Made by a program: the position numbers and the translations under genes
Origin: a virus
Reading direction: 5' to 3' (one strand)
IMG/VR virus record: IMGVR_UViG_3300031251_000086
Coordinates: 1 to 28,633 of that record
DNA: 28,633 nucleotides
Shown here: positions 2,205-28,565 of the stretch, one piece after another
Layout: each line of letters opens with the position of its first letter
Position numbering within the stretch: position 1 is the stretch's first letter
Notes under the pieces: model-generated
Told to the model about the DNA's origin: nothing
What the model saw: the letters and a program-made list of their open reading frames with translations, nothing else
Databases searched by the model: none

Positions 2205-2206
2205 AG

Positions 2207-2336: not shown

Positions 2337-2343
2337 ATAACAC

Positions 2344-2428: not shown

Positions 2429-2429
2429 T

Positions 2430-2518: not shown

Positions 2519-2527
2519 ATGATTTAT

Positions 2528-2610
2528 GGGTGTGTAGATAATGCGAATCGGTACAGCCGCCGGCCTTAAAAGTCGGAACCTTGTGGGTTCAAGTCCCACC
2601 ACACCCACCA
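2528..2610 (+). tRNA. tRNA-Leu (TAA) with a short variable loop
   Basis: Acceptor GGGTGTG pairs perfectly with CACACCC. The anticodon loop CTTAAAA reads TAA. T arm GTGGG/CCCAC and encoded CCA. The variable region is only 6 nt instead of the long arm usual for bacterial tRNA-Leu, and the D-arm region is longer than normal (25 nt between acceptor and anticodon stem). It shares the D-arm sequence GATAAT.CGAATCGGTACAG with the Leu (TAG) gene at 2708. Confidence 0.9.
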
Positions 2611-2612
2611 AT

Positions 2613-2706
2613 GCCTCTATAGCTCAATGGTAGAGCGGCAGGCTTATACCCTGCGTATGCACTTGATAGGTGCGCGATTTCGGTTCGAGTCCGGATGGAG
2701 GTACCA
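2613..2706 (+). tRNA. tRNA-Ile (TAT) with a long variable arm
   Basis: Acceptor GCCTCTA pairs with TGGAGGT (G-T first pair). D arm GCTC/GAGC. Anticodon stem GCAGG/CCTGC with loop CTTATAC reads TAT, decoding the rare Ile codon AUA. CCA is encoded. The 24-nt variable region contains a TGCAC/GTGCG hairpin, which is not expected for tRNA-Ile. Confidence 0.88.
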
Positions 2707-2707
2707 C

Positions 2708-2790
2708 GGCCTCGTAGATAATACGAATCGGTACAGTTAGCTGCCTTAGAAGCAGTTCCCTTGTGGGTTCGAGTCCCACCGAGGCCACCA
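2708..2790 (+). tRNA. tRNA-Leu (TAG) with a short variable loop
   Basis: Acceptor GGCCTCG pairs perfectly with CGAGGCC. Anticodon loop CTTAGAA reads TAG. T arm GTGGG/CCCAC, CCA encoded. The variable region is 6 nt and the D-arm region is enlarged, as in the Leu (TAA) gene, so the two are probably duplicates that diverged. Confidence 0.92.
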
Positions 2791-2798
2791 GATTATTT

Positions 2799-2875
2799 GC
2801 CCCTGTATGCTAATTGGAAACGCAGTTAGCTTCAAAAGCTTACGTGTGTGAGTTCGAATCTCACTAGGGGTACCA
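2799..2875 (+). tRNA. tRNA-Leu (CAA) with a short variable loop
   Basis: Acceptor GCCCCTG pairs with TAGGGGT (with G-T pairs). Anticodon loop TTCAAAA reads CAA. T arm GTGAG/CTCAC, CCA encoded. The variable loop is 5 nt, again short for tRNA-Leu. Confidence 0.88.
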
Positions 2876-2911
2876 ATGTTTTTGTTTAACCCTTCTTAAA
2901 AGGAGAGCGAC

Positions 2912-2989
2912 GTGATCACAATGCTAACAGCAAAGTGGCTACTGGCAACGCTAGTAGAAAAACTGAACAATCCTGATCAAATCTTCTAA
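2912..2989 (+). CDS. possible 25-aa peptide
   Basis: GTG at 2912 (or ATG at 2921) follows a good ribosome binding site (AAAAGGAGAGCGAC) and opens a 25-residue frame ending in TAA at 2987. The peptide has a short amphipathic stretch (AKWLLATLVEKL). The site is what makes it plausible; no family was recognised and no coding signal can be measured at this length. It begins about 37 nt after the last gene of the dense tRNA run. Confidence 0.35.
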   Translation: MITMLTAKWLLATLVEKLNNPDQIF

Positions 2990-3340
2990 TGTTACACCGT
3001 TAGGATCTTCCTGAGAAGGGTTGGTAAGAGGAGAAAGTGAAAGTGGGCCAAAGAAGTTAGGACCAGGTTCTAGCCAGCATACCCTGCATTTGTTGTGTAA
3101 AACAAGTGAACTTCCATGGAGTTGGAAGTGCGTCATGACATTATTCTCGGGAAGAGAACTTTGAAAGTGGAGAAGCGAGCCGCCCACAAGGGGTTATCAG
3201 GAATATGACGGTACCTGTGACATTTGGAAACGGATGTAGGTGATGATCGTTCGGCCGCCCCTTTACTTGTTTCAAATTAGACTAGATCATTTTGTCCTCC
3301 TCACTATTTTTGAGCGCAATCGAGAAAGTTCGCGCCTGAG
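2990..3340. other. non-coding stretch without a clear gene
   Basis: No + strand frame with a ribosome binding site is seen here, and a minus-strand frame (2951-3187) lacks any supporting signal. Small hairpins occur, for example ACTTCC/GGAAGT near 3112-3131. The segment 3188-3263 has a 7-bp acceptor-like pairing (AAGGGGT with GCCCCTT) and a D-arm-like CAGG/CCTG helix, but no valid T arm or anticodon loop, so it may be a decayed tRNA. Confidence 0.4.
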
Positions 3341-3505
3341 TTACCTTTTTGCATATTTCAGGAGGAAGCTATGCAAAGAGCAGATAAAAGAAAGTTAATA
3401 ACAGAAAGAAAAATTTTCAACACCCGACCCATCGCAGGCGAAAGCTTGAGGAAGTTCGGGGTTGGGAAGAGCAAGGTTAATCGCTCTGTGGCAGAGGAAT
3501 GGTAG
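3341..3505 (+). pseudogene. truncated copy of the homing endonuclease 5' end
   Basis: Bases 3341-3396 repeat the leader, ribosome binding site and first codons of the endonuclease at 1448 (TTACCTTTTTGC, then AGGAGGAAG.TATGCAAAGAGC). The copy starts MQRADKRKL, as the intact gene starts MQRADKRKF, and then diverges completely. The frame stays open for 44 residues and stops at 3503, so a short peptide could still be made from the strong ribosome binding site. No GIY-YIG motif remains. It marks a past insertion and deletion of the mobile gene. Confidence 0.7.
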
Positions 3506-3835
3506 GTTAAAAACAACCCGATAAAAGTGGCAGAATGTGCCATTGCACACTGAATAATTCAATAGCCGGCTCTCGTAACCATCCGTAAGTGTCGAGATTT
3601 CGTGGTAAAAGCGAAGCCACCTCCGCACTCAAGTCTCATTATCGACCACAACGATCCTCCAACAAGTCAAACAGTTCCTTGTGACGCTGCTCGCCGAGGG
3701 AACGGGTTGATGCACCTACGACTCGGATTGAAACCCGACGAGGACGGCTTCTAGCAAATAGAAGTTCGTAGGTAGATGATGGGATTGGAACAGAACCCCG
3801 GCTATGAGGTGTTGAAATCTTTCTAAATAAGACAT
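3506..3835. other. non-coding stretch upstream of the second tRNA cluster
   Basis: No credible ORF is present on either strand. The segment is rich in small hairpins (TGGCA/TGCCA near 3530-3545, GTTCC/GGAAC near 3674-3702). It contains the compact three-helix element at 3714-3773 described separately. A CTAAATA motif at 3823-3829 lies directly before tRNA-Gly. Confidence 0.4.
3714..3773 (+). ncRNA. candidate three-helix structured RNA element
   Basis: A perfect 8-bp helix (ACCTACGA 3714-3721 with TCGTAGGT 3766-3773) closes two hairpins. One is CTCG/CGAG (3722-3725 with 3739-3742), or alternatively TCGG/CCGA. The other is a perfect 6-bp CTTCTA/TAGAAG with a GCAAA loop (3748-3764). It is too short for a tRNA and has no T loop. 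On the minus strand the same helices form equally well, so the strand is not certain. Confidence 0.35.
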
Positions 3836-3910
3836 GCGGGTATAGCTCAGTGGTAGAGCGAGACGTTGCCAACGTCTAGGTCGCCGGTTCGAACCCGGCT
3901 ACCCGCTCCA
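3836..3910 (+). tRNA. tRNA-Gly (GCC)
   Basis: Acceptor GCGGGTA pairs with TACCCGC. D arm GCTC/GAGC. Anticodon stem AGACG/CGTCT with loop TTGCCAA reads GCC. T arm GCCGG/CCGGC, CCA encoded. Fully canonical. Confidence 0.97.
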
Positions 3911-3933
3911 ATTTGATTGGTGTTTCGAATTAT

Positions 3934-4024
3934 GGATGGTAGGCTGCTTGGAGCAGAAACTGCCTTGAAAACAGTTCCCATCGGTGAGTAGCCGGTGAGA
4001 GTTCGATTCTCTTGCCATCCTCCA
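3934..4024 (+). tRNA. tRNA-Ser (TGA)
   Basis: Acceptor GGATGGT pairs with GCCATCC. The anticodon loop CTTGAAA reads TGA. A long variable arm with a CGG/CCG helix is followed by T arm GAGAG TTCGATT CTCTT and an encoded CCA. Confidence 0.92.
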
Positions 4025-4068
4025 TGTTTTGTGAACCGAAAGTTGTTGGTTATCCTTACCATACTTAA

Positions 4069-4140
4069 GGACGTTAGTGTAACTGGTAGCACTCCGCATT
4101 GATAAAGCGGGAGATGGGTTCGAATCCCACGTTTACCCCA
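4069..4140 (+). tRNA. tRNA-Ile (GAT), imperfect acceptor stem
   Basis: D arm AGTG/CACT, anticodon loop TTGATAA reading GAT, T arm with loop TTCGAAT and encoded CCA (4138-4140) are present. The 5' acceptor strand GGACGT pairs with the 3' strand only if three bases (TTA) bulge out, as though three bases had been lost from the 5' side. The T stem also has an A-C mismatch. It may be a decaying gene or one that needs end repair. Confidence 0.65.
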
Positions 4141-16720: not shown

Positions 16721-17812
16721 ATGCAAATCTTTCTGGTTGGTGGTGCAGTCCGTGATACCATGTTGGGTCGTGAACCCAAAGATCAAGACTGGGTGGTCGT
16801 TGGTGCCACTGAAACGGATGTCTCAGAACTGATTGCTTTGGGGTACACCCAAGTTGGTTCTGACTTCCCAGTGTTCTTGCATCCGGAAACGGGTGACGAG
16901 TACGCATTGGCCCGCGTAGAACGTAAGACAGGTGTTGGTTACCACGGCTTCACAGTAAGCGCTGACAACTCAGTGACCATTGAAGAAGACCTGGCCCGCC
17001 GCGATTTGACCATCAACTCTATGGCCATGACCGACGGTGGTGAAATCATTGATCCATACAATGGTATCCGTGACATTCACAACCATATTCTGCGTCACAC
17101 GACTGAAGCGTTCGCCGAAGATCCGCTGCGCGTGCTGCGGTTGGCGCGATTTGCTGCGCGCTTTCCTGACTGGAAAGTTGCACCAGAAACAATTGAACTG
17201 TGTAAGGCCATTGGGGAAGCCGGTGAATTGAATCACTTGACCTTAGAACGTGTCTGGGTAGAAATGGAAAAGGGATTCTGTGAAGAGGCACCTCACCGTT
17301 TCATTGAGGTCTTGGATGAATGTGATGCCTTGAAGCATTGCAGGGTCTTGCGAGATATCTTCCTGCCATTTGGAAAAATCGATATGGCACTGGCGAAGAA
17401 GTTGAACACGGTGCCGAAGGCGCAACGATTGTTTGTAGCTATTGGTGTGTTGGGCAAGAGCGGCCTGGCCTCACACGGTGGCCCGGTCCGCACTCGTGAT
17501 TGCTATGAGAACATGGGTGCGTTGTTGCGTGCTAAAAAAGATGCAGCGTCGTTGTTCAAAGTCTTGAAGCAAGCAAGAGCATTGCAGAACGGAATCCAGT
17601 TCAATGATTTGATTGTGGCGGCTGCGGTCTTTGAGCGTTCTGGTAATTCACGCCAGTTGCCGTTCAGTACCAAGGACTTGATGGCTGGTCAACATATTGT
17701 GTTGAACGTTCGTTCCATTGACTTCTTGGGGTTAGAGGGGAAGGCCTTGGGAAAGGCCATTGAGGACGCACGCATCAATGCCCTGAGATCAGGGCTGGAT
17801 ATAGAAGCTTAA
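16721..17812 (+). CDS. cca: CCA-adding tRNA nucleotidyltransferase
   Basis: The enzyme adds the CCA end to tRNAs. All class II head-domain motifs are clear: [11 protein letters not shown] with KDQDWVVVG (D21 and D23 bind the catalytic metals), [10 protein letters not shown] for sugar recognition, [16 protein letters not shown], and ERVWVEM. The sequence is closest to the E. coli-type Cca. At 363 residues it is shorter than the bacterial enzyme (about 412), and I do not see its HD phosphohydrolase domain. ATG 16721 starts right at the core fold. At least three tRNA genes here lack an encoded CCA (219, 1042, 1319), which gives the enzyme an obvious use. It may also repair damaged ends. A strong terminator follows. 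Confidence 0.93.
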
Positions 17813-17815
17813 AAG

Positions 17816-17843
17816 ACTGGGGCACCCGTCCCAGTTTCTTTTT
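17816..17843 (+). terminator. rho-independent terminator after cca
   Basis: ACTGGG (17816-17821) pairs with CCCAGT (17830-17835) and is followed by a T-rich run (TTTCTTTTT). It lies three bases after the cca stop codon. Confidence 0.85.
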
Positions 17844-17863
17844 GAGCCCGCAGCTCACAACTG

Positions 17864-17869
17864 TACAAT
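17864..17869 (+). promoter_or_regulatory. -10-like TACAAT box
   Basis: TACAAT lies 24 bases before ATG 17894, just after the cca terminator and upstream of a good ribosome binding site (AAAGGAG). The place is right for a promoter of the next unit. Confidence 0.4.
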
Positions 17870-17893
17870 ACTTCTATTCACAAAGGAGAATGT

Positions 17894-18130
17894 ATGTCAC
17901 GGAACAGCAAGAATGCAACTCGCCACGCCCAAGCGCGCCAGATTTCTGAAATGCGCAAGAAGGGCGAGAGCGGCCCATCAAAGACGACGCCGAAGCATGG
18001 CAAGCGTTGGGGCTACCGTTCCAATCCAGAGGCCATGAAGAGGCTGACTGAGTTCGTGAAGGGTGCGGTACCATCTCAGAAGACTGGTGGCAAGGCAATC
18101 CTCGACAGGGCGGGAAGTGCCGCAAAGTGA
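17894..18130 (+). CDS. small basic phage protein (78 aa)
   Basis: The protein starts SRNSKNATRHAQARQ and contains PSKTTPKHGKRWGYR, a pattern I know from short phage proteins of unknown role. It is strongly basic with no hydrophobic core, so it probably binds nucleic acid. The ribosome binding site (AAAGGAGAATGT) is strong, and a promoter-like box and terminator precede it, so it begins a transcription unit. Confidence 0.8.
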   Translation: MSRNSKNATRHAQARQISEMRKKGESGPSKTTPKHGKRWGYRSNPEAMKRLTEFVKGAVPSQKTGGKAILDRAGSAAK

Positions 18131-18143
18131 TAGAAATCAAAAC

Positions 18144-18263
18144 ATGGAGCACTGGACCACGTACAGCCATGCCAAACGTTTGGAGAACCTATTACGAATT
18201 TGGTTTGTGTCTTGCCGTGCTAAAAATGATACAACATTCTGCCATATACACATAGAACTCTGA
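18144..18263 (+). CDS. possible small protein (39 aa)
   Basis: A 39-residue frame from ATG 18144 to TGA 18261 fills the gap between two genes and ends one base before the next ATG. It has mixed composition with two cysteines and two histidines near the end (FCHIHIEL). No ribosome binding site is clear, and support is weak. Confidence 0.3.
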   Translation: MEHWTTYSHAKRLENLLRIWFVSCRAKNDTTFCHIHIEL

Positions 18264-18264
18264 C

Positions 18265-18786
18265 ATGGGAACTCCTACTCCTGCTAAGTTATTTAACTGC
18301 TACATAGACTCAGATGGCCCCGTAGCCGACTTTGATAAGGCTCTGAAGAAATCAGGCCTTCACACTGACGAGTTCAAGCATCTGCCTGGTACCTATCTCT
18401 GGCTTGATGTTACTCCGGGTGCCACAAATGCGCTTGATGATCTGAAGCGATTTGATGATGAAGGCAAGATTCGTGTTTGGATTCTGACGAAGACGCCGAG
18501 CGGCTCGCCGTATGCGTACACTGAGAAAGTACTGTGGTATCGTGAACATTTCCCATGGCTTGAGGATCGAGTGATCTTGACACACGACAAGTCTCTCATG
18601 GGAACCAAGCATGATTTCATCTTAGATGACCGTCCACACAAGGCAAATGCTGACAAATTCAAGGGGACCTTTACACTCTTTGACGTTCAACATCCTAAAC
18701 GATCATGGGAAGAATTCTATTCGCTCATTGAGAATGAAATTCTAGGGAACGCCTTAGAAGAGCATTCTGACAAGACCCTGGACTAA
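18265..18786 (+). CDS. 5'(3')-deoxyribonucleotidase-like HAD protein
   Basis: Motif I is YIDSDGPVADFD (nucleophile D15, then D17), the form seen in the NT5C family of cytosolic nucleotidases. Motif II and the following segment (ILTKTPSGSP, KVLWYREHFPW, RVILTHDKSLMGTKHDFILDDRP) match the same family, including the K and DD of motifs III and IV. These enzymes remove phosphate from nucleoside monophosphates and so control nucleotide pools. The role in DNA-precursor balance during infection is inferred. A strong terminator follows. Confidence 0.85.
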   Translation: MGTPTPAKLFNCYIDSDGPVADFDKALKKSGLHTDEFKHLPGTYLWLDVTPGATNALDDLKRFDDEGKIRVWILTKTPSGSPYAYTEKVLWYREHFPWLEDRVILTHDKSLMGTKHDFILDDRPHKANADKFKGTFTLFDVQHPKRSWEEFYSLIENEILGNALEEHSDKTLD

Positions 18787-18820
18787 TTGTTACGCACTTC
18801 AGGTTCTACCGAGCTAAATG

Positions 18821-18857
18821 AAGAGCTATAATGCATAAGCGTTATAGCTCTTTTGTT
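18821..18857 (+). terminator. rho-independent terminator
   Basis: AAGAGCTATAA (18821-18831) pairs perfectly with TTATAGCTCTT (18842-18852), with a following TTTTG-TTT run. The stem itself contains a TATAAT-like sequence. Confidence 0.85.
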
Positions 18858-18883
18858 TCAATTAATCATCTTTTGGAGAGAAA

Positions 18884-19630
18884 ATGAAGACTTTCATCTT
18901 TGCAGCCCTGGCCCTTGCAGCAGCAACGGCAATGGCTTGCGGAACTGGAACTTGTAGTTCCACCCCGACCGTTTCAGGCTCAGGCACTTCAGCCGCCGGC
19001 TCAAGCACCGCAACATCAGCGTTCGCAACATCCGCTGGCAATGGCAGTGCATTCAGCTCGCAATCTGCATTGGCTGGTGCTAGCGCTTTCGCTACTCCTA
19101 CCGCTGGTGCTAGCACAAACCCGTCTGGTTCAGCTGGAACTGCAGCCGTGGTTGGTGGCGCGAGCACTGGCGTTGCTTTGACAAGCGTGTCAACCACAAC
19201 TGGCAACGCCGCTGCGAACGGTACTGCTGCAGGTGGTGCTTGCGCCCAATCTGCAGGCAGTGCATCATACGGGGTCAAGGGTTTGAACCCAATCTCCGGC
19301 ACGGCCTCCGGAAACGCCAACAGCACAACTGACTTCAACGTTTCCACCAGTTCCGCTGGTGGTGGCCAAGCAGTTGCTGGTATCGCTGGTTCGACCACTT
19401 CAACCTTCACGGCCAACGCGGGTTCTGTTCGTACTGGCACTCAAGTGAACAACACAACTAGCGGCTCGTCCGCTGGTTCCGTGTCTGTTACATCCACACC
19501 GGTGCTGAGTGCTGTCGGTAACTCAGGCGCGAGCGTGGGCGGCAACGGTTCTGTTGGAAACGCATCCGCTGTTTCGAACTCAACTGCTGGCAACGGCTGC
19601 ACGGCCACGACCTGTGTGAACTCGCACTGA
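18884..19630 (+). CDS. exported Ser/Gly/Ala/Thr-rich low-complexity protein
   Basis: A strong ribosome binding site (TTTTGGAGAGAAA) and a clear signal peptide (MKTFIFAALALAAATAMA) are present. The mature 230 residues consist mostly of Ser, Gly, Ala, Thr, Asn and Val with almost no charge. There is a CGTGTC cysteine pair at the start and another (CTATTC) at the end, plus one mid-protein cysteine. Such composition resembles surface or fibre-forming proteins, but no repeat unit or known domain is visible. It heads a group of three exported proteins between two terminators. Its role could be on the cell surface of the infected host or in aggregation; I do not assign one. Confidence 0.82.
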   Translation: MKTFIFAALALAAATAMACGTGTCSSTPTVSGSGTSAAGSSTATSAFATSAGNGSAFSSQSALAGASAFATPTAGASTNPSGSAGTAAVVGGASTGVALTSVSTTTGNAAANGTAAGGACAQSAGSASYGVKGLNPISGTASGNANSTTDFNVSTSSAGGGQAVAGIAGSTTSTFTANAGSVRTGTQVNNTTSGSSAGSVSVTSTPVLSAVGNSGASVGGNGSVGNASAVSNSTAGNGCTATTCVNSH

Positions 19631-19637
19631 TCGGATT

Positions 19638-19660
19638 GAGAGGGAGCATTGCTCCCTCTC
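19638..19660 (+). terminator. perfect 10-bp hairpin between two exported-protein genes
   Basis: GAGAGGGAGC pairs perfectly with GCTCCCTCTC around ATT. It lies eight bases after the upstream stop and just before the next ribosome binding site (CAAGGAACCACC). With no T run it may be a partial terminator or RNA-processing/stability element that sets the ratio of the two proteins. Confidence 0.5.
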
Positions 19661-19672
19661 CAAGGAACCACC

Positions 19673-20137
19673 ATGAAAAAGTTTGTCTTGATCGTCCTGT
19701 CACTTGCTTCAGTTGCAACCTTCGCTGCTGATCCAGCAAGCACCATGTCAGGTAGTCTTTCCGTTGCGGGTGCTTCCAATCTCGGCAACAGCCAGAACAT
19801 CACGTTCACCTCGCCAAGTGAAGTACACAGTGTCACAACCATTGATGGTACACAAACCATCAAGAACGTTCCGTCCGTTAGCGGTCCCCCGTTGACAACG
19901 AGCAACGACACGTGCATGGGTTCTTCCTCCGGTTCCGCCAATGCCCCAGGCATTGGCATCAGCATCGGCAGTACTTGGACTGACAAGAACTGCAAGATGT
20001 TGAAGAATGCGCGTGAGCTTTGGAACATGGGCATGAAGGGTGCGGCCATGGCCTTGATGTGCAAGGACCCCGACAATCGTGAAGCTCTCGAGCTGACTGG
20101 TTACGTGTGCCCTTCCGCGAGCACTAAGAAGGACTGA
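19673..20137 (+). CDS. exported protein with a conserved Cys-containing C-terminal domain
   Basis: ATG 19673 gives a signal peptide (MKKFVLIVLSLASVATFA). A Ser/Thr/Gly-rich middle section resembles the upstream protein. A helical C-terminal domain (residues about 106-148) has three or four cysteines: KNCKMLKNARELWNMG, then ALMCKDPDNREALELTGYVC. I recall this pattern from phage-encoded exported proteins of unknown role. The cysteines probably form disulfides in the periplasm. Confidence 0.8.
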   Translation: MKKFVLIVLSLASVATFAADPASTMSGSLSVAGASNLGNSQNITFTSPSEVHSVTTIDGTQTIKNVPSVSGPPLTTSNDTCMGSSSGSANAPGIGISIGSTWTDKNCKMLKNARELWNMGMKGAAMALMCKDPDNREALELTGYVCPSASTKKD

Positions 20138-20144
20138 GGATCGT

Positions 20145-20573
20145 ATGAAGAACATTGCAATACTCCTTATTGCGTTCTTCACCACGTTCGCTCAGGCCAA
20201 CGTGGTGAACATCGCCAACGTGGTCAATGGGTCTGGTTCCCCAGGGAACGACACAGTTGAAAATGCTGTGGAAGTCTCCAATGGAATCATGCACGCTCCA
20301 CAATACCTTCCAGGGTATCCAACGGCCGCTACGATCTGGCCGCGAGTCATTGACGTCCCTTGCACACAAACGCCAACAGCCGTTGTGTGCAATGGGTACC
20401 AGTGGGCTCCAAGCATGGGGCGTGGTGAATATCTGTTTTTCAAACCTCACATCGTCGTACCGGTCGCCGTCGAAGAGAAGCGAGAAGAACCAAAAATGAC
20501 ACCTGTCCCTGAACCGCTGAAGCAACGGCCAAAGATCATCAAGAAGAGGAAAAAGAACCTCTGCGTCAAATAA
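20145..20573 (+). CDS. exported protein with a Lys/Arg-rich tail
   Basis: A signal peptide (MKNIAILLIAFFTTFAQA) is followed by a domain with two cysteines (VIDVPCTQTPTAVVCNGYQW) and the segment PSMGRGEYLFFKPHIVVP. The last 30 residues are Pro, Lys and Arg rich (KQRPKIIKKRKKNLCVK), unusual for an exported protein and possibly able to bind peptidoglycan, membrane or DNA. It is seven bases downstream of the previous gene and ends in a strong terminator that closes the trio. No family recognised. Confidence 0.78.
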   Translation: MKNIAILLIAFFTTFAQANVVNIANVVNGSGSPGNDTVENAVEVSNGIMHAPQYLPGYPTAATIWPRVIDVPCTQTPTAVVCNGYQWAPSMGRGEYLFFKPHIVVPVAVEEKREEPKMTPVPEPLKQRPKIIKKRKKNLCVK

Positions 20574-20599
20574 AGAAGGGACTACGGTCCCTTCTTTTT
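20573..20599 (+). terminator. rho-independent terminator after the exported trio
   Basis: AAGAAGGGAC (20573-20582) pairs perfectly with GTCCCTTCTT (20587-20596) around TACG, followed by T residues. It begins at the stop codon of the preceding gene. Confidence 0.88.
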
Positions 20600-20630
20600 G
20601 ATCTGTACTTTGTTACATTTCTGGCTTAGT

Positions 20631-20636
20631 TACAAT
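20631..20636 (+). promoter_or_regulatory. -10-like TACAAT box
   Basis: TACAAT preceded by GTTA lies 66 bases before ATG 20703, in the gap after a terminator. A TTTGTT about 18 bases upstream may be a weak -35 element. Confidence 0.4.
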
Positions 20637-20702
20637 TTGGTTGTGTACAACCTGAGAAGACCGTTGTACATTTACCATAACGCAACGAATCTGGATGAGA
20701 AC

Positions 20703-21188
20703 ATGAAAAAGGTATCAGCCACAACATTGCTTGAACAGATCGCAAAATTCAAGCGCTTTGCTGAACTTGCCACTGCTGAATTTCAACGGCAGCGCCTGCG
20801 CACCGTGCAAGGTCTTCAGTCTCAACTGAGTGATGTGTACGATGATGAACAAATCAAGTTCCTGAAGAAGCGTGGTGGTGAGAACGGTGAATGGTTCGAA
20901 CTTGTTCGCAAGTTCTACTTCATCGACCAATCCGATGAAGGCTACACAGTTCGCAGTGCCGCACGCGATTGGGAAACACAACCAGTGTGGGGCCCCTTCG
21001 GCCACAAGTTCGAAGCACTGATGAAGGTCGACGAACTGATCAAGTACAAGAACAATGATCGCAAATACGGCCGTGGTGATAAGGAGAAGGATATCGAACG
21101 TGCTGCCAAGATTGCTGACACGATCGCGAACGTATCGCTTGGCCTGACAACCGCCTTTGATTTCATGGGAGCAGAAAGTGATCACTGA
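20703..21188 (+). CDS. hypothetical soluble protein (161 aa)
   Basis: ATG 20703 is favoured over an earlier ATG in the same frame because the upstream sequence is the terminator and promoter region. The protein starts MKKVSATTLLEQIAKFKRFAEL and looks mostly helical, with an aromatic central part (GEWFELVRKFYFIDQSDEGY) and a charged C-terminal helix. No domain recognised. It overlaps the next gene by 11 bases. Confidence 0.72.
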   Translation: MKKVSATTLLEQIAKFKRFAELATAEFQRQRLRTVQGLQSQLSDVYDDEQIKFLKKRGGENGEWFELVRKFYFIDQSDEGYTVRSAARDWETQPVWGPFGHKFEALMKVDELIKYKNNDRKYGRGDKEKDIERAAKIADTIANVSLGLTTAFDFMGAESDH

Positions 21189-21441
21189 GCTTTACACCAT
21201 CGCCAAGAACCGTATGTTACTGAAGGTGAACGAGTTGAAGGCTCGCCGCGCGTACGATGAGTACATCAAGACCTTGTCACCGGAAAAGCAGGTGAAGTAC
21301 GCTGAGCTCCGCAGGCGCCTGGATACCGCTACACCCGCCCAAGCAATGGGCATTCTCCGCCGCGAGGCGGCCGCAATCTCTGAAGCCCAGATGCGAATTA
21401 CAGAACGCATCGAACGTGTACGAACCAACCTGGAGTCTTGA
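21178..21441 (+). CDS. hypothetical coiled-coil protein (87 aa)
   Basis: GTG 21178 follows GGGAGCAGAAA and is preferred to the earlier in-frame TTG. The protein is almost entirely charged helix (MLLKVNELKARRAYDEY and the ARRR-rich second half), so a coiled coil is likely. It overlaps the previous gene, and the next gene starts two bases after its stop. No family recognised. Confidence 0.68.
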   Translation: MITELYTIAKNRMLLKVNELKARRAYDEYIKTLSPEKQVKYAELRRRLDTATPAQAMGILRREAAAISEAQMRITERIERVRTNLES

Positions 21442-21443
21442 TC

Positions 21444-21566
21444 ATGTGGAACTACTGTCACGCAAAATCCGCCCGCAAACATCGGAAACAAGGGCACTAC
21501 GTTCGCTTTGCGTTCAACTCCGTACACGGTCGTCCTGTGTACAAGTGGATCAAAGAAGTCCAGTAA
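21444..21566 (+). CDS. small basic conserved phage protein (40 aa)
   Basis: The frame starts two bases after the previous stop. The sequence WNYCHAKSARKHRKQGH, with VHGRPVYKWI near the end, is a pattern I know from very short phage proteins: a basic HAKSARKHRK helix and a conserved aromatic C-terminus. Function is unknown; nucleic-acid binding is plausible. A strong terminator follows. Confidence 0.75.
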   Translation: MWNYCHAKSARKHRKQGHYVRFAFNSVHGRPVYKWIKEVQ

Positions 21567-21587
21567 CGCTTCCTCCTTGCGTTTCTT

Positions 21588-21611
21588 TGGGACCTTTCGG
21601 TCCCATTTTTC
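21588..21611 (+). terminator. rho-independent terminator
   Basis: TGGGACC (21588-21594) pairs perfectly with GGTCCCA (21599-21605) around TTTC and is followed by TTTTTC. Confidence 0.88.
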
Positions 21612-21636
21612 ATTTCAGAGACGAATCTGTCTTCGT

Positions 21637-21642
21637 TACAAT
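21637..21642 (+). promoter_or_regulatory. -10-like TACAAT box giving a probable leaderless start
   Basis: TTACAAT ends six bases before ATG 21649, just after a terminator. No ribosome binding site lies between, so the message would begin at or next to the start codon. The spacing equals that at 4371-4376. Confidence 0.45.
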
Positions 21643-21648
21643 CATTGA

Positions 21649-22065
21649 ATGGGCATGATCAAGATTTACTCAAGCAAGAGCAAACCTGCGAAGAAGAAGC
21701 CGGGTTGGCAGAAACAAGAGGCTGAATATCAAGCTTGGTTGAAGAGTGTCCAGTCTATGGGGTCTGGAATTCGAACATCTGGCTTAGCCCCCAAGAAGCG
21801 AATCGAGGTGGTGGTCAGTGCACCGGTTGTTGACGAGACAAGGGGCTATAGAGGCTCTAGTCTCCAGACACCGGGTGGAGCAGCGACCAAACCGGTGCAT
21901 CGGCCAGAAATCATGTACAAAGATGACCCTGAGATGCTTGAGCGCGAACTCAGGGCTCGTGAACGAAGGTTCACCACCGCACCGGCTTACAACAAGGGTG
22001 GAAATGTTCTTATCACAGATGAAATGATGAAGGACATTACAGCAGGGAAGACTAGGAGACGATAG
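21649..22065 (+). CDS. conserved phage hypothetical protein (138 aa)
   Basis: The C-terminal half is a pattern I recognise from many phages: TPGGAATKPVHRPEIMYKDD, then EMLERELRARERR and AYNKGGNVLITDEM. The N-terminal half is basic (KSKPAKKKPGWQKQEAEY). It lacks known catalytic motifs and may be a small virion-associated or DNA-linked protein; I assign no function. The start may be leaderless (ATG 21649), with ATG 21655 as an alternative. Confidence 0.85.
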   Translation: MGMIKIYSSKSKPAKKKPGWQKQEAEYQAWLKSVQSMGSGIRTSGLAPKKRIEVVVSAPVVDETRGYRGSSLQTPGGAATKPVHRPEIMYKDDPEMLERELRARERRFTTAPAYNKGGNVLITDEMMKDITAGKTRRR

Positions 22066-22403
22066 TGAAAATGACAGGGTTTGACGTTCAAAACGTAGCA
22101 AAGTTAGTACAAGACGGAATTGGTAAGACATTTCAAGATGAATTGTACAAGCGGTTCATGGAACAAGCTGAAGTAATAGCACGCGCTACAGCTTCTGAGA
22201 TTGCCGAACACATTTCAGCAAACGTCACAGGCATGCATAGTGATGCTCTTGCACAGTTCAAGTTTGACTTACACTTCAAAATGGTCTCACCTGACATTCC
22301 GAGCGCCAGCACAATTGTTGATGTTCGTGATGGGGTGCCTTTGATTGCTTGGGGTGGTGTTGACACGAAGAGCCTCAGGGGTAAGAAAATCTTTGTGGCA
22401 TGA
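22065..22403 (+). CDS. hypothetical protein (112 aa)
   Basis: GTG 22065 (or ATG 22071) begins a protein with a long helical N-terminal region (residues 5-60) and a short strand-rich end (TIVDVRDGVPLIAWGG). It overlaps the stop of the previous gene by one base and the next gene by four. No family recognised. Confidence 0.68.
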   Translation: MKMTGFDVQNVAKLVQDGIGKTFQDELYKRFMEQAEVIARATASEIAEHISANVTGMHSDALAQFKFDLHFKMVSPDIPSASTIVDVRDGVPLIAWGGVDTKSLRGKKIFVA

Positions 22404-22606
22404 CACTGCTTCGCAAGATAGCTGTTGATCTTCTACACGGTAAGCTTCCAGCAATTGCCGCCGAAGATTTGACGCGTAAACGCCTCGAAATGTGTGAGGG
22501 CTGTGAGTACTTCACACAATTGACCCACCAATGTAAGTTGTGTGGTTGTTTTATGGAAGCCAAAGCAAAGTTGCTAGAGGCTGAATGTCCCTTGGAAAAA
22601 TGGTAA
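22400..22606 (+). CDS. small zinc-ribbon protein, DUF6171-like
   Basis: Six cysteines are arranged C32-x2-C35, C45-x2-C48-G-C50 and C63 in MCEGCEYF, QCKLCGCFMEAKAKL and ECPLEKW. This is the layout of the DUF6171-type zinc ribbon, which ends CP..KW. The N-terminal helix (LLRKIAVDLLHGKLP) may be an adaptor. A zinc-binding role is firm; its partner is unknown. It is coupled to both neighbours (four-base and one-base overlaps). Confidence 0.82.
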   Translation: MTLLRKIAVDLLHGKLPAIAAEDLTRKRLEMCEGCEYFTQLTHQCKLCGCFMEAKAKLLEAECPLEKW

Positions 22607-22749
22607 TGTATACGCGTGAACAAGCAAAATTTGATGAAGCATTGACAGGATGCGTCGAAACGGATATGAACCCCGTGGAAGAGCTGTGCCACTACCAGGG
22701 TCAGCGTTCTATCAAGGTGCCGATGGCGAAGACTGATGTTTGTTCTTGA
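22606..22749 (+). CDS. small hypothetical protein (47 aa)
   Basis: ATG 22606 overlaps the preceding stop by one base, and the frame ends 14 bases inside the next gene. The peptide starts MYTREQAKFDEALTGC and is acidic and soluble. Support is positional: it fills the gap with translational coupling on both sides. Confidence 0.55.
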   Translation: MYTREQAKFDEALTGCVETDMNPVEELCHYQGQRSIKVPMAKTDVCS

Positions 22750-23278
22750 GCGTTCAATCACGAAAGCGTACTGGGAACCCACACAGTGGTACCTCATTGA
22801 GCACATGCGGCGAGGCTGGAGCTGGGTTGGAAACACACGTGTAGCAAAAATAGAGTGCACGAAAACCGGCAAAGCTTATGCAATGTTAGATGTAGTGAAT
22901 GGTGCGTGTGTCCCAGTTGGTTGGATATGGCTGCGCAGGCGTGCTAAGTGGACTGCATACGAAGTACACCAGACTTTTGTGTTGAAGAACTATCGTGGCA
23001 TGGGGTACGCAGAAACCATGTACAAGGCCGCCGTGAACGTTGATGGTGTTTTACTTGCAAGCGGTCCGTCACACACCAAGTACTCTGCTGGGCTGTGGCG
23101 CAAGTTTGTCAGAAACAGTACGTTCAATGTTTGGGCACAAGACTTTAAGAACCTTGGAAGAACATCTCAGGTGTATCTTGAGGACGATAAACTTGTGAGC
23201 ACTTCAAATCTAGACATCTATCATCTGCCGTATTCGTGGCAAGACGTGCGACTTGTCGCGCAAAGGAAACATAAATGA
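22736..23278 (+). CDS. GNAT-like acetyltransferase-fold protein
   Basis: The central part (residues about 75-105) has the GNAT order: a strand YEVHQTFVL, then the acetyl-CoA pyrophosphate loop YRGMGYAETMY (R/Q-x-x-G-x-A pattern) and a helix, then VDGVLLASGPSH and a helix YSAGLWRKFVRN. About 180 residues fits a single GNAT domain. The substrate is unknown; phage GNAT proteins may modify host proteins or small molecules. It overlaps the preceding small gene by 14 bases and the next by four. Confidence 0.72.
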   Translation: MFVLERSITKAYWEPTQWYLIEHMRRGWSWVGNTRVAKIECTKTGKAYAMLDVVNGACVPVGWIWLRRRAKWTAYEVHQTFVLKNYRGMGYAETMYKAAVNVDGVLLASGPSHTKYSAGLWRKFVRNSTFNVWAQDFKNLGRTSQVYLEDDKLVSTSNLDIYHLPYSWQDVRLVAQRKHK

Positions 23279-23961
23279 GCGATTTCGCACCCATGCCAGA
23301 TACAGTCCCACCGAACGCATGTGAGACTGTATCTGGTCATTATGTGGATATAGTAAATCCACAGGCACAGGACATTAAGATCACTGACATTGCTTGGTCT
23401 CTAGCCAGGCAAGTTCGCTTTGCTGGTCATACTCTCGGTGATCCATACCACATTGCTCAACACGCTGTGTTTGTTGCAGATCTGCTTGATATGGTGCTCG
23501 ACCATGACTTTGAGGGCGGCGCACTTCGTTCATCGTTCGACAAATGGTTATCCGACAGACACTGGCCAAGTCTGATCCGCAAGCCGGTACTGTTGATCAA
23601 TGCGCTTGGGCATGATAACAGTGAAGCGTATCTTGTTGATTTACCATCGCCAGTGAAACGGCATCCAGAGCTTCGTGCGTCGTACAAGCCTCTTGAAGAA
23701 AATTTGATGAAGGTTATCAACGAAGCTCTAGACATTCCAGAGATGAATGAGTGTGAGGCTAGAGCAGTACAGTGGGCCGATCTGATAGCACTTCAAATCG
23801 AGGCCGCCAGTCAAATGGCCTCACGTGGGCGTGGATGGAATGGTGATCTGCCGCAGTTCAACCTGGAATTCATAAATTACATGCCTAAGATCAAAAGTTG
23901 GCGGGCGGCGAACGATGAATACCTTGAGCGTTTTTATGAGCTGAAACGTTGTGTGGTGTGA
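23275..23961 (+). CDS. HD-domain phosphohydrolase (YfbR-like 5'-nucleotidase)
   Basis: The HD-domain metal ligands can be read as H63 (YHIAQHAVFVADLL), H113-D114 (ALGHDNSEAYLVDLPSPVKR) and a later Asp in QWADLIALQIEA near residue 167. This arrangement, with R45 in the first helix, matches the YfbR-like nucleotidases found in many phages, which remove phosphate from deoxynucleoside monophosphates. At 228 residues it is near the usual length (about 200). With the HAD nucleotidase at 18265 it gives two predicted nucleotide phosphatases in one window. A terminator follows. Confidence 0.85.
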   Translation: MSDFAPMPDTVPPNACETVSGHYVDIVNPQAQDIKITDIAWSLARQVRFAGHTLGDPYHIAQHAVFVADLLDMVLDHDFEGGALRSSFDKWLSDRHWPSLIRKPVLLINALGHDNSEAYLVDLPSPVKRHPELRASYKPLEENLMKVINEALDIPEMNECEARAVQWADLIALQIEAASQMASRGRGWNGDLPQFNLEFINYMPKIKSWRAANDEYLERFYELKRCVV

Positions 23962-23983
23962 TAGAGGGCATCAGGTGACAAAT

Positions 23984-24008
23984 AGGAGGGCCGAATGGTC
24001 CCTTCTTT
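23984..24008 (+). terminator. rho-independent terminator
   Basis: AGGAGGGCC pairs with GG(T)CCCTTCT around GAAT, with one bulged T and a short T-rich end. It closes the transcript that ends with the HD protein. Confidence 0.7.
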
Positions 24009-24021
24009 GCATTTCAAATCG

Positions 24022-24028
24022 CTAAATA
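24022..24028 (+). promoter_or_regulatory. late-promoter-like CTAAATA motif
   Basis: GCTAAATATT lies between the terminator and ATG 24053, ending 24 bases before it. That is the position expected of a T4-type late promoter. Confidence 0.45.
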
Positions 24029-24052
24029 TTGAGTCTTTCTTCAGGAGCACCC

Positions 24053-24937
24053 ATGTCAGAACTTAACCGCTTGCGCGAGCTTGCCGCGCTATTCCGCCCA
24101 CAAATGCAGGTTCAAGAGTCAGATGATTCTTTGAGTGATCTCGATGGCATCAAACAGATCGTTGACGAAGCTATTGAAGATCTTGAACACAAGCTGGGTA
24201 AAGGTGGTGCTCTTGAATCAATGGTTAAGAAGGCGCACAGTGTTGAAGACCTTGCGCAATTAAAGACTCAAGTAAAGCGCCTTGACTTTTTGACGGTGCA
24301 GTTCAAAAGAGAAGTCAAAGAGGTTTTGTCAGACATCGATAAAATCTTCACTGCGCACGAGCTTAAGAAGACCATGGAGTCTTTGCCAAAAAATAATGGG
24401 AGTGTTCCTTGGAAGAAGGCCAGAGCGATAAGGTTTTCCTCGCTGAAGGAAGACGTTGAGCTTACAGAGATGGCCGCCCATACATCCTTCCGAGGTGGGT
24501 GCTTCAAACGTGCTGAAGCGAAGCTCATCATCAAACAATTCCGAGGCGGTGAGGAAAGCTTTGATCTTCCTAATGGCGACAAGTACATGGCCAAGAAGGC
24601 GGTGAACGGATCTACACTTGAAGCTGGCATGATTGTGTTTGCATCGCATGACAAATATAATACTGGCGCAGAGCTCTATGAAGTTAAGGGGTTCTGTGAA
24701 GGACGTGATGGTCCAGTGAAATTCAAATCTGTCAAGGAAGCGTTCAAGGCCCACGGCGTCTCTTCTCTGAAGGCACTTGAAAAAGTTGGCGATGAAGATA
24801 ACAGCAAGGTTGTTCGTTTGGTGGTGAAAGACATTGCTGATGGTCAAGAGGGCGACTTCTTCTATCTGTTTGAGGGTCGTTGGTCTTATGGCTCTGGTGC
24901 TGAACCATTGTCCTTCACCTTGGTTGAAAAGGCCTAA
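24053..24937 (+). CDS. coiled-coil protein of unknown function (294 aa), possible virion protein
   Basis: ATG 24053 begins MSELNRLRELAALFRPQ, a start often seen in virion-associated proteins of large myoviruses. The first 120 residues form charged heptad-like helices, and the remainder (residues 125-294) seems globular with several beta segments (LVVKDIADGQEGDFFYLF). A late-like promoter motif precedes it. A structural role is inferred from this context only. The next gene begins directly after its stop codon. Confidence 0.75.
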   Translation: MSELNRLRELAALFRPQMQVQESDDSLSDLDGIKQIVDEAIEDLEHKLGKGGALESMVKKAHSVEDLAQLKTQVKRLDFLTVQFKREVKEVLSDIDKIFTAHELKKTMESLPKNNGSVPWKKARAIRFSSLKEDVELTEMAAHTSFRGGCFKRAEAKLIIKQFRGGEESFDLPNGDKYMAKKAVNGSTLEAGMIVFASHDKYNTGAELYEVKGFCEGRDGPVKFKSVKEAFKAHGVSSLKALEKVGDEDNSKVVRLVVKDIADGQEGDFFYLFEGRWSYGSGAEPLSFTLVEKA

Positions 24938-25747
24938 ATGAATTTCCGTGAACTTAGCGAAGACGGTCCAATTGAAAATTTCGCAGACCGTGCTGAACAT
25001 ACGCTTAAGGGCGTAGGTGATCTTGCGAAGGGAGCCCTTCGCAAGATCAAGGATGCGAAAGATCAAGAGCATGCTGAGGTGAAGTCGGCGACCGAGAAGA
25101 AAGAAAAAGAAGATACTGTTGCTGCAGAGAAGAATAAAAAGGCTCAAGCCCTGAAGAAAGCTGGACCTAGAACAGCTGCGGCGACAGTAGCTCACATTAT
25201 CCTTGATCGTACTCCTGAAGCAGAGGATATGCCTGAGCTTGAGGATCTTGATGTGGAGAACTTTGCACACTTGCAAAATGCAGTCGATCAGATTTCATCC
25301 AGGTTCAGAAAGTTCGTCAAGGTCTTGACGAAAAACTTCAGAACCGCACCGTACATCAATGCCATAGATCGTAAGGAAGTTCCTGAACGTCTCGGTGATC
25401 AGAACGATCGTGTTGTTGAGTCAGCTGAGACTATGCTCATGCAAGACAAGTTTGGTGAACGTGATGCTTGGATGAAAGCACTGCTTGATGATGATACTGA
25501 AGTTGGTGGGAAGGCACTCGTGAATATGATCGGGCGAATCTCAGATCAACACAGTAAAATGAATCAAGCACAGAATAAAAAGGTCTATGCTGATGGCTTG
25601 AACCTCTTGAATCTGATCGGTGCGCAACGCCAAATCATTGAGATGCGTATTGAACTTATGCGCACTGCGGTTGATCAATTGGCAGACAGACCTGCAATGA
25701 ATGAGGCACTCTTCAAACGAGTTCGAAAGCTCGCTAAGAAGCTGTAA
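24938..25747 (+). CDS. highly charged helical protein (269 aa), possible virion protein
   Basis: The start codon follows the previous stop without a gap. The N-terminal 75 residues are almost purely charged (KSATEKKEKEDTVAAEKNKK), and the rest is helical with few aromatic residues (DQISSRFRKFVKVL, IEMRIELMRTAVDQL). No catalytic motif is seen. Paired with the upstream gene under a late-like promoter, it may be an internal head or tail-associated protein; that is inference. A 30-bp palindrome lies in its coding sequence at 25019-25048. Confidence 0.75.
   Translation: MNFRELSEDGPIENFADRAEHTLKGVGDLAKGALRKIKDAKDQEHAEVKSATEKKEKEDTVAAEKNKKAQALKKAGPRTAAATVAHIILDRTPEAEDMPELEDLDVENFAHLQNAVDQISSRFRKFVKVLTKNFRTAPYINAIDRKEVPERLGDQNDRVVESAETMLMQDKFGERDAWMKALLDDDTEVGGKALVNMIGRISDQHSKMNQAQNKKVYADGLNLLNLIGAQRQIIEMRIELMRTAVDQLADRPAMNEALFKRVRKLAKKL
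25019..25048. repeat. 30-bp near-perfect palindrome inside a gene
   Basis: A 14-base arm (GATCTTGCGAAGGG) is followed by AG and the exact reverse complement. It encodes DLAKGALRKI. Such perfection is not expected from coding needs. Confidence 0.9.
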
Positions 25748-25787
25748 CCTGAAAACAGTGTTCACTTTTTAAGGTTCGTGGCATAAT

Positions 25788-25803
25788 GCACCCTAAGAGG
25801 TGC
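25788..25803 (+). promoter_or_regulatory. hairpin overlapping the ribosome binding site of the second GNAT-like gene
   Basis: GCACC (25788-25792) pairs with GGTGC (25799-25803) around CTAAGA. The paired right arm is part of the likely ribosome binding site (AGAGGTGC) before ATG 25807, so folding would mask it. A CATAAT -10-like box lies just upstream at 25782-25787. Confidence 0.35.
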
Positions 25804-25806
25804 AAA

Positions 25807-26202
25807 ATGATACGTGTTTTCAAAGACAAAACTCTCCTTGAAGGTATTGACATCGCTCTGACGAATCAACTGTACGTGCCTGGGTGGGCACTACGCCCTG
25901 CCCTAGAAACAGCGCTGAAGGATTCCAAAGCAGGATTTCAATGCAATCATGAACTTGCCATCGTCTTCGAAGATTGCAAGGCCATCGCATTAGCGTTCAG
26001 AAATCCAGATGGCTTTGGTGATGTTTATGGTTGGTTGCAAAGCGTACAGATCATGGCGTTCTGTGATGAGTCGTACCGCCAGAGGGGGTTTGCCTCTCAG
26101 TGCGTTCAAGCAATCAAACAACCACTTGACAAGGCTAGCACTGGTACTGCAAGCTCGCATTTCTTCTGGGGTAAGCATGAAGTTCCGGTCAGCGCTAAAT
26201 AG
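25807..26202 (+). CDS. second GNAT-like acetyltransferase-fold protein
   Basis: ATG 25807 is preferred to ATG 25786 because AGAGGTGC precedes it at the right distance. The segment LQSVQIMAFCDESYRQRGFASQCVQA fits the GNAT strand followed by the R-x-x-G-x-A acetyl-CoA loop and helix. At 131 residues it is a minimal domain. The preceding part (LAIVFEDCKAIALAFRNPDG) supplies the earlier strands. Substrate unknown. Sequence resemblance to the GNAT-like protein at 22736 is limited to the fold motif. Confidence 0.7.
   Translation: MIRVFKDKTLLEGIDIALTNQLYVPGWALRPALETALKDSKAGFQCNHELAIVFEDCKAIALAFRNPDGFGDVYGWLQSVQIMAFCDESYRQRGFASQCVQAIKQPLDKASTGTASSHFFWGKHEVPVSAK
26195..26201 (+). promoter_or_regulatory. 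late-promoter-like CTAAATA motif
   Basis: GCTAAATAGTTT overlaps the end of the GNAT-like gene and lies 82 bases before ATG 26284 (or 37 before the mini-ORF at 26239). Confidence 0.35.
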
Positions 26203-26238
26203 TTTGCGCCATACTGGTGCACTCAACAGAGGTTAATT

Positions 26239-26280
26239 ATGGGCTCTTGCTCTGTGGGCCGTTTCAATGAGGAAAACTGA
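26239..26280 (+). CDS. possible leader peptide (13 aa)
   Basis: ATG 26239 follows AGAGGTTAATT and reads 13 codons to TGA at 26278, three bases before the next start region (MGSCSVGRFNEEN). It may be a translation leader for the zinc-ribbon gene or chance. Confidence 0.25.
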   Translation: MGSCSVGRFNEEN

Positions 26281-26283
26281 GTG

Positions 26284-27117
26284 ATGTACTCAAACAAGCT
26301 TGTCATCGCCGTCAAGCACAATGATCGCGTTCTACGCGAACACGGCGACACTGTCCATATTCCATTTGGCAGTGAATATGCTTTGACAATTAAGAACAAG
26401 AACTCTGTTCGCGCTCTCGTGCGTGTCGAGATCGACGGCGTTGATGTGACTGGTGGAACGCGCCTGATTGTTCCAGCGAATGGATCACTTGATCTGGAGC
26501 GGTTCATCAAGGAAGGGAACTTGAATCAATGGAACCGATTCAAGTTCATCGAACGCACGAAGAAAATCGAAGACGGTCCACGTGGCATTGGCGTAGAAGA
26601 CGGCCTTGTTCGTGTAGAGTTCGAGTTCGAACGTGAACCACTGCCATATAAGAATGTGAATTGGGACACCCGTATTAAGGACCAACTTGCGCGGCATGAT
26701 CAGAATGAAATCACCGGTCCGTACTGGACAACTTGTTCTGATCAATTCATTGGTCAGATGTCCACTGGCGGTGTCGTAGGTCAGGCCTATAACGCCTCCA
26801 ATACTTTGATTTCTGGCTCAGCCGGCGACCAGCGTGTCGCCACGGCCAGCTATTCGTCCAACACGGCTCCAGTTAACGATGTCGGCATCACCGTACCCGG
26901 CTCGATCTCGGATCAGAAGTTTACTGCTGGGGCTTGGTTCCCAACTGATGGCGTGAAGCACGTGATGATCATGAAGTTGCTTGGCGAAGTTGAAGGGAAG
27001 GTCGTCGAAAAACCTGTGACCGTGAAGACCAAGCCAACTTGTGTCACATGCGGTACTGTGAACAAGGGGAACGCTAAGTTCTGTCGTGAATGTGGAACTG
27101 GATTAACAATCGTGTAA
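26284..27117 (+). CDS. conserved protein with a C-terminal zinc ribbon (277 aa)
   Basis: ATG 26284 follows GAGGAAAA. The N-terminal 100 residues form a beta-rich domain (RALVRVEIDGVDVTGGTRL, then NRFKFIER) of a kind I have seen in phage and some cellular proteins without known function. A Gly/Ser-rich middle follows. The C-terminus (residues about 254-272) is a clear zinc ribbon, CVTCGTV then CRECG. Zinc ribbons of this form often anchor proteins to partners or nucleic acid. A late-like motif upstream suggests late expression. A strong hairpin terminator follows. Confidence 0.82.
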   Translation: MYSNKLVIAVKHNDRVLREHGDTVHIPFGSEYALTIKNKNSVRALVRVEIDGVDVTGGTRLIVPANGSLDLERFIKEGNLNQWNRFKFIERTKKIEDGPRGIGVEDGLVRVEFEFEREPLPYKNVNWDTRIKDQLARHDQNEITGPYWTTCSDQFIGQMSTGGVVGQAYNASNTLISGSAGDQRVATASYSSNTAPVNDVGITVPGSISDQKFTAGAWFPTDGVKHVMIMKLLGEVEGKVVEKPVTVKTKPTCVTCGTVNKGNAKFCRECGTGLTIV

Positions 27118-27148: not shown

Positions 27149-27183
27149 ATGGAGTAAAGACTATAATGTCTTTACTCCATTTT
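27149..27183 (+). terminator. 13-bp hairpin terminator with TATAAT as its loop
   Basis: ATGGAGTAAAGAC (27149-27161) pairs perfectly with GTCTTTACTCCAT (27168-27180), followed by TTT. The six-base loop is TATAAT, a perfect -10 box, so the element may combine a terminator with a promoter for the next gene. Confidence 0.8.
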
Positions 27184-27351: not shown

Positions 27352-27535
27352 AGTTGAGCGCATTGGCATCCGCTCAGCAAGCCCCGGTCGCCTAGAGTTT
27401 CTCAGGTTGAGCAGCCTCGCAAGCGACGGTCCTGTGACCGCTCAGGCTTTGGCTGAAGTGAAGGAAATTCTGGATGCGGAGTTCCAGTCTTTTGAGTGCA
27501 GGGACTGGTGGGTAACTCAAACGTGGAAGCTCTGA
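27293..27535 (+). CDS. hypothetical protein (80 aa)
   Basis: ATG 27293 follows a ribosome binding site (CAAGGAAACCTCA). The protein begins MTITTVKPKTAKQLLARLTEVE and has a helical body with a Trp-rich end (CRDWWVTQTWKL). No family recognised. Its stop overlaps the start of the membrane-Panacea gene by one base, so the two are co-translated. Since toxin-antitoxin genes are often paired this way, it is a possible partner, but nothing in its sequence shows toxin activity. Confidence 0.7.
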   Translation: MTITTVKPKTAKQLLARLTEVERIGIRSASPGRLEFLRLSSLASDGPVTAQALAEVKEILDAEFQSFECRDWWVTQTWKL

Positions 27536-28401
27536 TGAAAAAATTCTCAGCCAGTGGCCAGACGGTCTTCAAAATACCTGTCGCCCTTATTCTTGGTTTG
27601 ATCTATATGATCGCTCCGGTGTTTGCTTCACTGGTGGCAAATGTTATTGCATGGATTTTAATCTGTGCTTTTACAGTCATTTTCTGTGCTTTCAAATTCG
27701 CACCCGCGAAGGTCCCACGTGGTGGCTTCACTCGAGCTAGCGTGAACCAGCACATCCTGAATAAGATCACGTGGAGCAGTACGGCTATTGCGCTTTTACA
27801 TACGGCGATCATGGCTTTTGTGATTGGACATAACACTCATCCCTGGACATTCACGTTCTTTACGGCTATGTCCGTGTACGCACTGTACTGCGCATTCTTT
27901 GTTTTGGAAGGAGGGGTCGTGAGTTCACAAAAATCACTTGCTGTTGCTCAGTACCTTCTTGAGCAATGCCAGCGTGCGGGGATTGGCTTGACCCCAATGC
28001 AACTCATCAAGCTGACGTATGTTGCGCATGGGTACATGCTCGCGGCAACAGGCGCTCCCCTTCTTGATGAGTCCGTTGAAGCTTGGCAGTATGGCCCTGT
28101 GGTCCCTAGTGTTTATCATGCACTTAAAGGGTTCCGGAGCGCGGTTGTTGCCCATGTTCCTGGCGCATTCCCGAATAACAATTCAATCAACCATTCGGAA
28201 AAGCGAATATTGGATTTCGTGGCTGGCAGGTACGGCCGATATGATGGCATTACTCTGTCATCTGCGACACACCGGGACGACACCCCATGGGCCATTACAT
28301 GGTCGGCATGCGGCGGGAACAAAAACGCCGTAATTTCGAATGACATTATCAAGAGCTTCTACTCACAGCTCATGCGCCACCCCACGCACAGTTCGCTGTG
28401 A
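27535..28401 (+). CDS. transmembrane protein fused to a Panacea/SocA (DUF4065) antitoxin domain
   Basis: The 288-residue protein has two parts. Residues about 14-124 contain three to four membrane spans (PVALILGLIYMIAPVFASL and the following segment, STAIALLHTAIMAFVIGH, FTAMSVYALYCAFFVL). Residues about 130-280 are a SocA/Panacea domain: LAVAQYLLEQC, LTPMQLIKLTYVAHGYML, ESVEAWQYGPVVPSVYHALK and ATHRDDTPWAI are its hallmarks. Panacea domains act as antitoxins that neutralise many different toxins. An internal GTG at 27919 (residue 129), behind a near-perfect ribosome binding site (GGAAGGAGGGGTC), could produce the antitoxin domain alone. The membrane part may be a toxin-like domain or an anchor. 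It overlaps both neighbours by one and four bases. Confidence 0.85.
   Translation: MKKFSASGQTVFKIPVALILGLIYMIAPVFASLVANVIAWILICAFTVIFCAFKFAPAKVPRGGFTRASVNQHILNKITWSSTAIALLHTAIMAFVIGHNTHPWTFTFFTAMSVYALYCAFFVLEGGVVSSQKSLAVAQYLLEQCQRAGIGLTPMQLIKLTYVAHGYMLAATGAPLLDESVEAWQYGPVVPSVYHALKGFRSAVVAHVPGAFPNNNSINHSEKRILDFVAGRYGRYDGITLSSATHRDDTPWAITWSACGGNKNAVISNDIIKSFYSQLMRHPTHSSL
27919..28401 (+). other. internal in-frame start: stand-alone Panacea domain (160 aa)
   Basis: GTG 27919 is in the same frame as the full gene and follows GGAAGGAGGGG at a proper distance, one of the strongest ribosome binding sites in the window. Translation from it gives (M)SSQKSLAVAQYLLEQ..., which is the ordinary N-terminus of free SocA/Panacea proteins. 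This suggests one gene producing two proteins. Confidence 0.55.
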
Positions 28402-28565
28402 CATTTAAGGTAATTGCCGTGGAGATGATCGAGCCCAAAGGCTTCGGTCGCATCCGTCTGCAACGCATCCCGGATGACTCGACAAGCAGCGTCGTGCCCT
28501 TCGTTCAGAACATTCGTCTTGAGGCTCATTTTCGGAATGGAGTTCCAATTGCTTACAGCGAATGA
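28398..28565 (+). CDS. small hypothetical protein (55 aa)
   Basis: GTG 28398 overlaps the stop of the Panacea gene by four bases (GTGA). The peptide (MTFKVIAVEMIEPKGFGRIR, then RLEAHFRNGVPIAY) looks beta-rich and soluble. It is translationally coupled to the Panacea gene and so could be its partner, but no motif is recognised. ATG 28425 is an alternative start. Confidence 0.6.
   Translation: MTFKVIAVEMIEPKGFGRIRLQRIPDDSTSSVVPFVQNIRLEAHFRNGVPIAYSE

Follow-up and report, generated by a model that had tools for sequence, protein, structure and literature searches.

A single gene in the window (the whole stretch of DNA analysed, a 28.6-kb virus record of 28,633 nt) joins membrane spans in frame to a genuine Panacea domain and carries a putative internal start site at the border between the two parts (Table 1). 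As an antitoxin domain, Panacea is highly promiscuous. This combination of features, noticed in the first-pass annotation of the DNA, was confirmed; the interpretation placed on it, a membrane toxin made together with its own antitoxin, was as a whole partly supported. The reading that we prefer, to which we assign a rough probability of 0.4, is that a large phage took up a PanA antitoxin without its usual toxin and makes it in a membrane-tethered and a free form, as a counter-defence against the membrane PanT toxins of its hosts.

Table 1. Positions of the fusion gene, its parts and neighbouring features in the window.
Feature	Position	Strand	Basis or remark
Hairpin, 13-bp perfect stem, then TTTT	27149..27183	+	MFE -19.8 kcal/mol, z -6.5
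Small upstream ORF, 80 aa	27293..27535	+	stop overlaps next start by one base, TGATG; no relatives found
Fusion gene, membrane part and Panacea domain, 288 aa	27535..28401	+	open ORF; AlphaFold model
Membrane part, residues 1-128, three to four spans, predicted N-in/C-in	27535..27918	+	no detectable relative
Internal Shine-Dalgarno sequence AAGGAGG	27908..27914	+	anti-SD pairing; single occurrence on + strand
PanA (Panacea) domain with putative internal GTG start, 160 aa	27919..28401	+	Pfam, PHROG, AlphaFold, start position of stand-alone relatives
ORF, 48 aa, where relatives have the membrane toxin gene	28419..28565	+	not a membrane protein; no relatives found

The reading frame of the fusion runs from an ATG at 27535 to a TGA at 28399-28401 without an in-frame stop. 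Its C-terminal part is a member of the SocA/Panacea family, as had been proposed for residues 129-288: the PF13274 profile matched residues 157-252 with E=3.3e-18 and 67.1 bits, passing the curated Pfam cut-off of 25.7, and PHROG 1281 matched residues 132-280 (E=1e-37). In the AlphaFold model, residues 130-280 mostly have pLDDT values of 95-98. Bartonella PanA needs residues Y56 and H120 against its membrane toxin (PMC10440598); these interface residues correspond to Y186 and H246 of the fusion, and both are near-invariant family-wide. Searches of the PDB returned no Panacea relative, neither by sequence nor by fold.

Related loci, 160 in all, were collected by scanning IMG/VR and GTDB genomes. 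In a maximum-likelihood tree, the Panacea domain of the window falls within a 15-member clade (support 100/99) of stand-alone PanA antitoxins from proteobacterial and viral sequences. Genomic neighbours were counted at 120 distinct loci whose downstream sequence was long enough, and a gene with a predicted membrane span was present just downstream in 98 of them and just upstream in 8. For relatives with at least 45% identity, a membrane-protein gene lies just downstream in 22 of 26 and just upstream in none. In the downstream proteins of these sister loci, one or two spans come after a soluble N-terminal segment, and the same general layout has been described for depolarising PanTs (PMC8832971). 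This supports the link to membrane toxins drawn in the first-pass annotation, since membrane-protein genes are the usual partners of this Panacea sub-clade. At loci L010-L017 and L131 the gene downstream of panA belongs to a PanT-like membrane subfamily with the highly conserved motif GFGxWFxP...KxSDxxxIAFxTxTTxTVxGLYGxAAYWLxGK, and the conserved segment before its span is perhaps an antitoxin-binding element. Two of the closest relatives have no downstream membrane gene; one of them, a PanA of the clade from Cupriavidus (L092), lies beside a HipA-like gene. In the window itself, no ORF matches toxin profiles and the ORF that follows the fusion encodes 48 aa; the contig ends 232 bases past the gene, so a toxin could still lie farther off.

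The data searched contain no other multi-span membrane-Panacea fusion. None of the 128 loci tested has an in-frame N-terminal extension with more than one hydrophobic segment, and PF13274 surveys of 1,149 genomes, with 49 of the long-frame loci read, gave no case in which two or more spans precede the domain. Among the long-frame Panacea proteins a single hydrophobic stretch occurs in seven, when each frame is taken from its earliest possible start codon. An apparent alignment from residue 59 with fecal phage MT835822 was rejected, as the ORF concerned is a stand-alone Panacea protein without spans. Among N-terminal extensions of PanA, HTH and PAD1 are named as the widely conserved ones (PMC8832971), and a phrase search for a membrane-anchored antitoxin had no match in the papers searched.

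The membrane spans ahead of the Panacea domain were recovered from hydrophobicity as well as from predicted structure. Favourable 19-mers begin at residues 14, 33, 78, and 106, which gives four likely spans within residues ~14-124, and AlphaFold places helices at residues 16-54, 67-98, and 103-128 (pLDDT ~55-85); from the four segments and three helices we count three to four spans. When four spans are modelled, all K/R within residues 1-128 lie on one, cytosolic, side with both ends inside, which places the Panacea domain in the cytosol. No homologue of the membrane part was found by tblastn in phages and plasmids, in the IMG/VR scan, in Pfam or in PHROGs, and a comparison with the 99 PanT-like downstream membrane proteins of the sister loci gave no significant match. 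PHROG 10390, with ~150 residues before Panacea, has an N-terminal part that does not match it either.

These results bear directly on the earlier proposal that the spans are themselves a toxin. According to this explanation, the four spans would be a new membrane toxin kept silent by the Panacea domain at its own C-terminus, with free antitoxin supplied in addition from the internal start. It is a serious rival because in PanAT systems the toxin gene commonly comes first (325 of 1,268 loci) and partners are often swapped (PMC8832971); in addition, the Panacea of this clade mostly adjoins a membrane toxin gene, and antitoxins encoded within toxin genes exist, the RpnS antitoxins arising from within rpn toxin genes (PMC10327210). 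Yet the membrane part shows homology with none of the PanT membrane proteins and is encoded upstream of panA rather than downstream, an arrangement seen in 0/26 of the closest relatives. Its spans begin at residue 14, and it lacks the soluble segment that precedes the spans in the PanT-like layout and with which, in the Bartonella PanT, Panacea is predicted to make contact (PMC10440598). We found the role of the membrane part as a toxin unsupported, and a single-gene toxin-antitoxin is in our estimate unlikely, at somewhat better than one chance in four.

The sequence at the domain border points to a second, internal initiation site. AAGGAGG, which occurs once on the + strand of the window, precedes the GTG at 27919-27921 with a slightly short spacing of 4 nt. 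The anti-SD pairing predicted at 27919 (-12.2 kcal/mol) is the best among 45 putative gene starts in the window, and that at the start of the fusion, 27535, is -3.3 kcal/mol; only 2 of 1,796 start-like codons on the + strand score as well as 27919. Stand-alone relatives, moreover, have their initiator Met at the position of this GTG (e.g., MSSQKSLAVAQ vs. MGSKSLAVAQ). RNA structure around the site showed no notable feature. The internal start suggested in the first-pass annotation is thus a convincing candidate, and, if both starts are functional, more free PanA than fusion protein would be expected. At the level of sequence only, the gene has the Rpn-like arrangement of an in-frame internal start with a ribosome binding site.

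The same site is also compatible with two adjacent genes, a membrane protein and then a free PanA overlapping it by four bases (GTGA), that were merged by the change of a single base, whether a genuine indel or an error of assembly. The internal start does read GTGA, the TGA of which would close the neighbouring frame; four-base NTGA overlaps are present at 11 gene junctions of the window, the start is complete on its own, and the fusion is unique in the data. However, only the present frame is hydrophobic up to the end of the last span, so that a one-base change would be confined to the last few codons. An A after GTG is expected by chance about once in four cases, and there is no direct sign of error. 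We consider such a merger doubtful, a little under one chance in four.

Phages often encode small membrane exclusion proteins, and the fusion might be one of these or a membrane-tethered sensor, with Panacea as a binding or sensing domain and not an antitoxin. Panacea has been proposed as a sensor in multidomain antitoxins (PMC10440598), but the closest relatives here are single-domain PanAs in toxin-antitoxin-like loci and nothing specific points to sensing, which makes this explanation improbable.

The window probably derives from a large, jumbo-type phage, since about ten genes of a 332-kb contig (L189) are in the same order as in window 16721-27117. The last of these (26281-27117) encodes a conserved phage protein, function not assigned, with a C-terminal zinc ribbon (CVTCGTVNKGNAKFCRECGT); this protein (also L178-L191) is found in at least 15 virus contigs, one of 332 kb. 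In six records searched with relatives of this gene no Panacea was found, and synteny was kept in one jumbo phage; a scan with the neighbouring gene 24029-24934 gave no result. The first 4.2 kb of the window also contain a cluster of 11 tRNA genes (9-4140) with small ORFs between them, and farther on there are a tRNA nucleotidyltransferase-like gene (16721-17812) and a deoxyribonucleoside 5'-monophosphate phosphatase-like gene (23275-23961). The hairpin downstream of the zinc-ribbon gene is likely a terminator that divides this conserved gene from an accessory run, although a consensus terminator scan did not pick it up. Past the hairpin there are densely packed small genes with no counterpart in the compared stretch of L189, and the fusion gene sits within this accessory run.

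Three features, namely the clade to which the domain belongs, the lack of the usual toxin and the predicted position of Panacea in the cytosol, favour an antitoxin directed against membrane PanTs that are encoded by others. These features, like the spans and the start-site sequence, come from computation, whereas the two products, the binding of toxins and counter-defence are inferred. In the counter-defence reading that we prefer, PanA would have been captured, minus the toxin, from a clade whose usual partners are membrane-active PanT toxins, and would be carried in frame behind a four-span membrane anchor. One mRNA would probably give rise to two proteins. The first would be a membrane-tethered PanA, weakly initiated and translationally coupled, with its Panacea domain at the cytoplasmic face; the second would be a free PanA, initiated at the strong internal site and adding a soluble pool. 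Panacea would bind the cytosolic segment just before the membrane helix of host PanTs, and the tethered form would act where these toxins insert, so that the role would most likely be one of counter-defence. Two observations are in line with it: a 41-kb virus contig (one locus, L001/L009) likewise has a PanA of the clade without a downstream membrane gene, and the fusion gene has an accessory position, with Panacea absent throughout the syntenic 332-kb phage. Against the counter-defence reading, free PanA alone would suffice and the anchor needs a reason of its own, and a PanA beside a membrane protein is usually part of a toxin-antitoxin pair.

A toxin-less, membrane-tethered phage PanA from a membrane-toxin clade would, if true, point to a reuse of PanA by phages in counter-defence, and a defence role of membrane PanATs would become directly testable. 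Should the membrane part prove toxic, toxin and antitoxin would be combined compactly in one gene, with an internal start for the antitoxin. We tentatively propose a one-gene, two-product membrane device, be it tethered and free Panacea disarming host PanTs or a self-contained membrane toxin with an intragenic antitoxin; neither form was found in the literature or the genomes searched.

Several known systems resemble parts of this arrangement. T4 Dmd, a phage antitoxin without a toxin (cited in PMC8832971), would act alike in neutralising host toxins, but it is unrelated and counters RNase toxins, so that the parallel would be one of function. In the Rpn gene-within-gene system (RpnL/RpnS; PMC10327210) the C-terminal part is made separately from an in-frame internal start, as it would be here; Rpn is, however, a nuclease, RpnS is not a Panacea protein, and toxicity of the long form has been shown for Rpn but is hypothetical for the gene of the window. 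Multidomain PanAs (HTH-Panacea and PAD1-Panacea; PMC8832971) likewise have a C-terminal Panacea behind an N-terminal extension, but their extensions are soluble, while that of the window gene is membrane-spanning and its seam carries a putative start of its own. In the membrane-toxin PanAT systems of Bartonella, E. coli, and Helicobacter (PMC8832971, PMC10440598), PanA is stand-alone and the toxin is encoded by a separate gene, downstream in the clade, in contrast to the N-terminal multi-span part and the lack of a downstream toxin here. Even so, the window gene shares with these PanAs both the Panacea domain and the interface residues, and members of its clade, too, adjoin membrane-protein genes.
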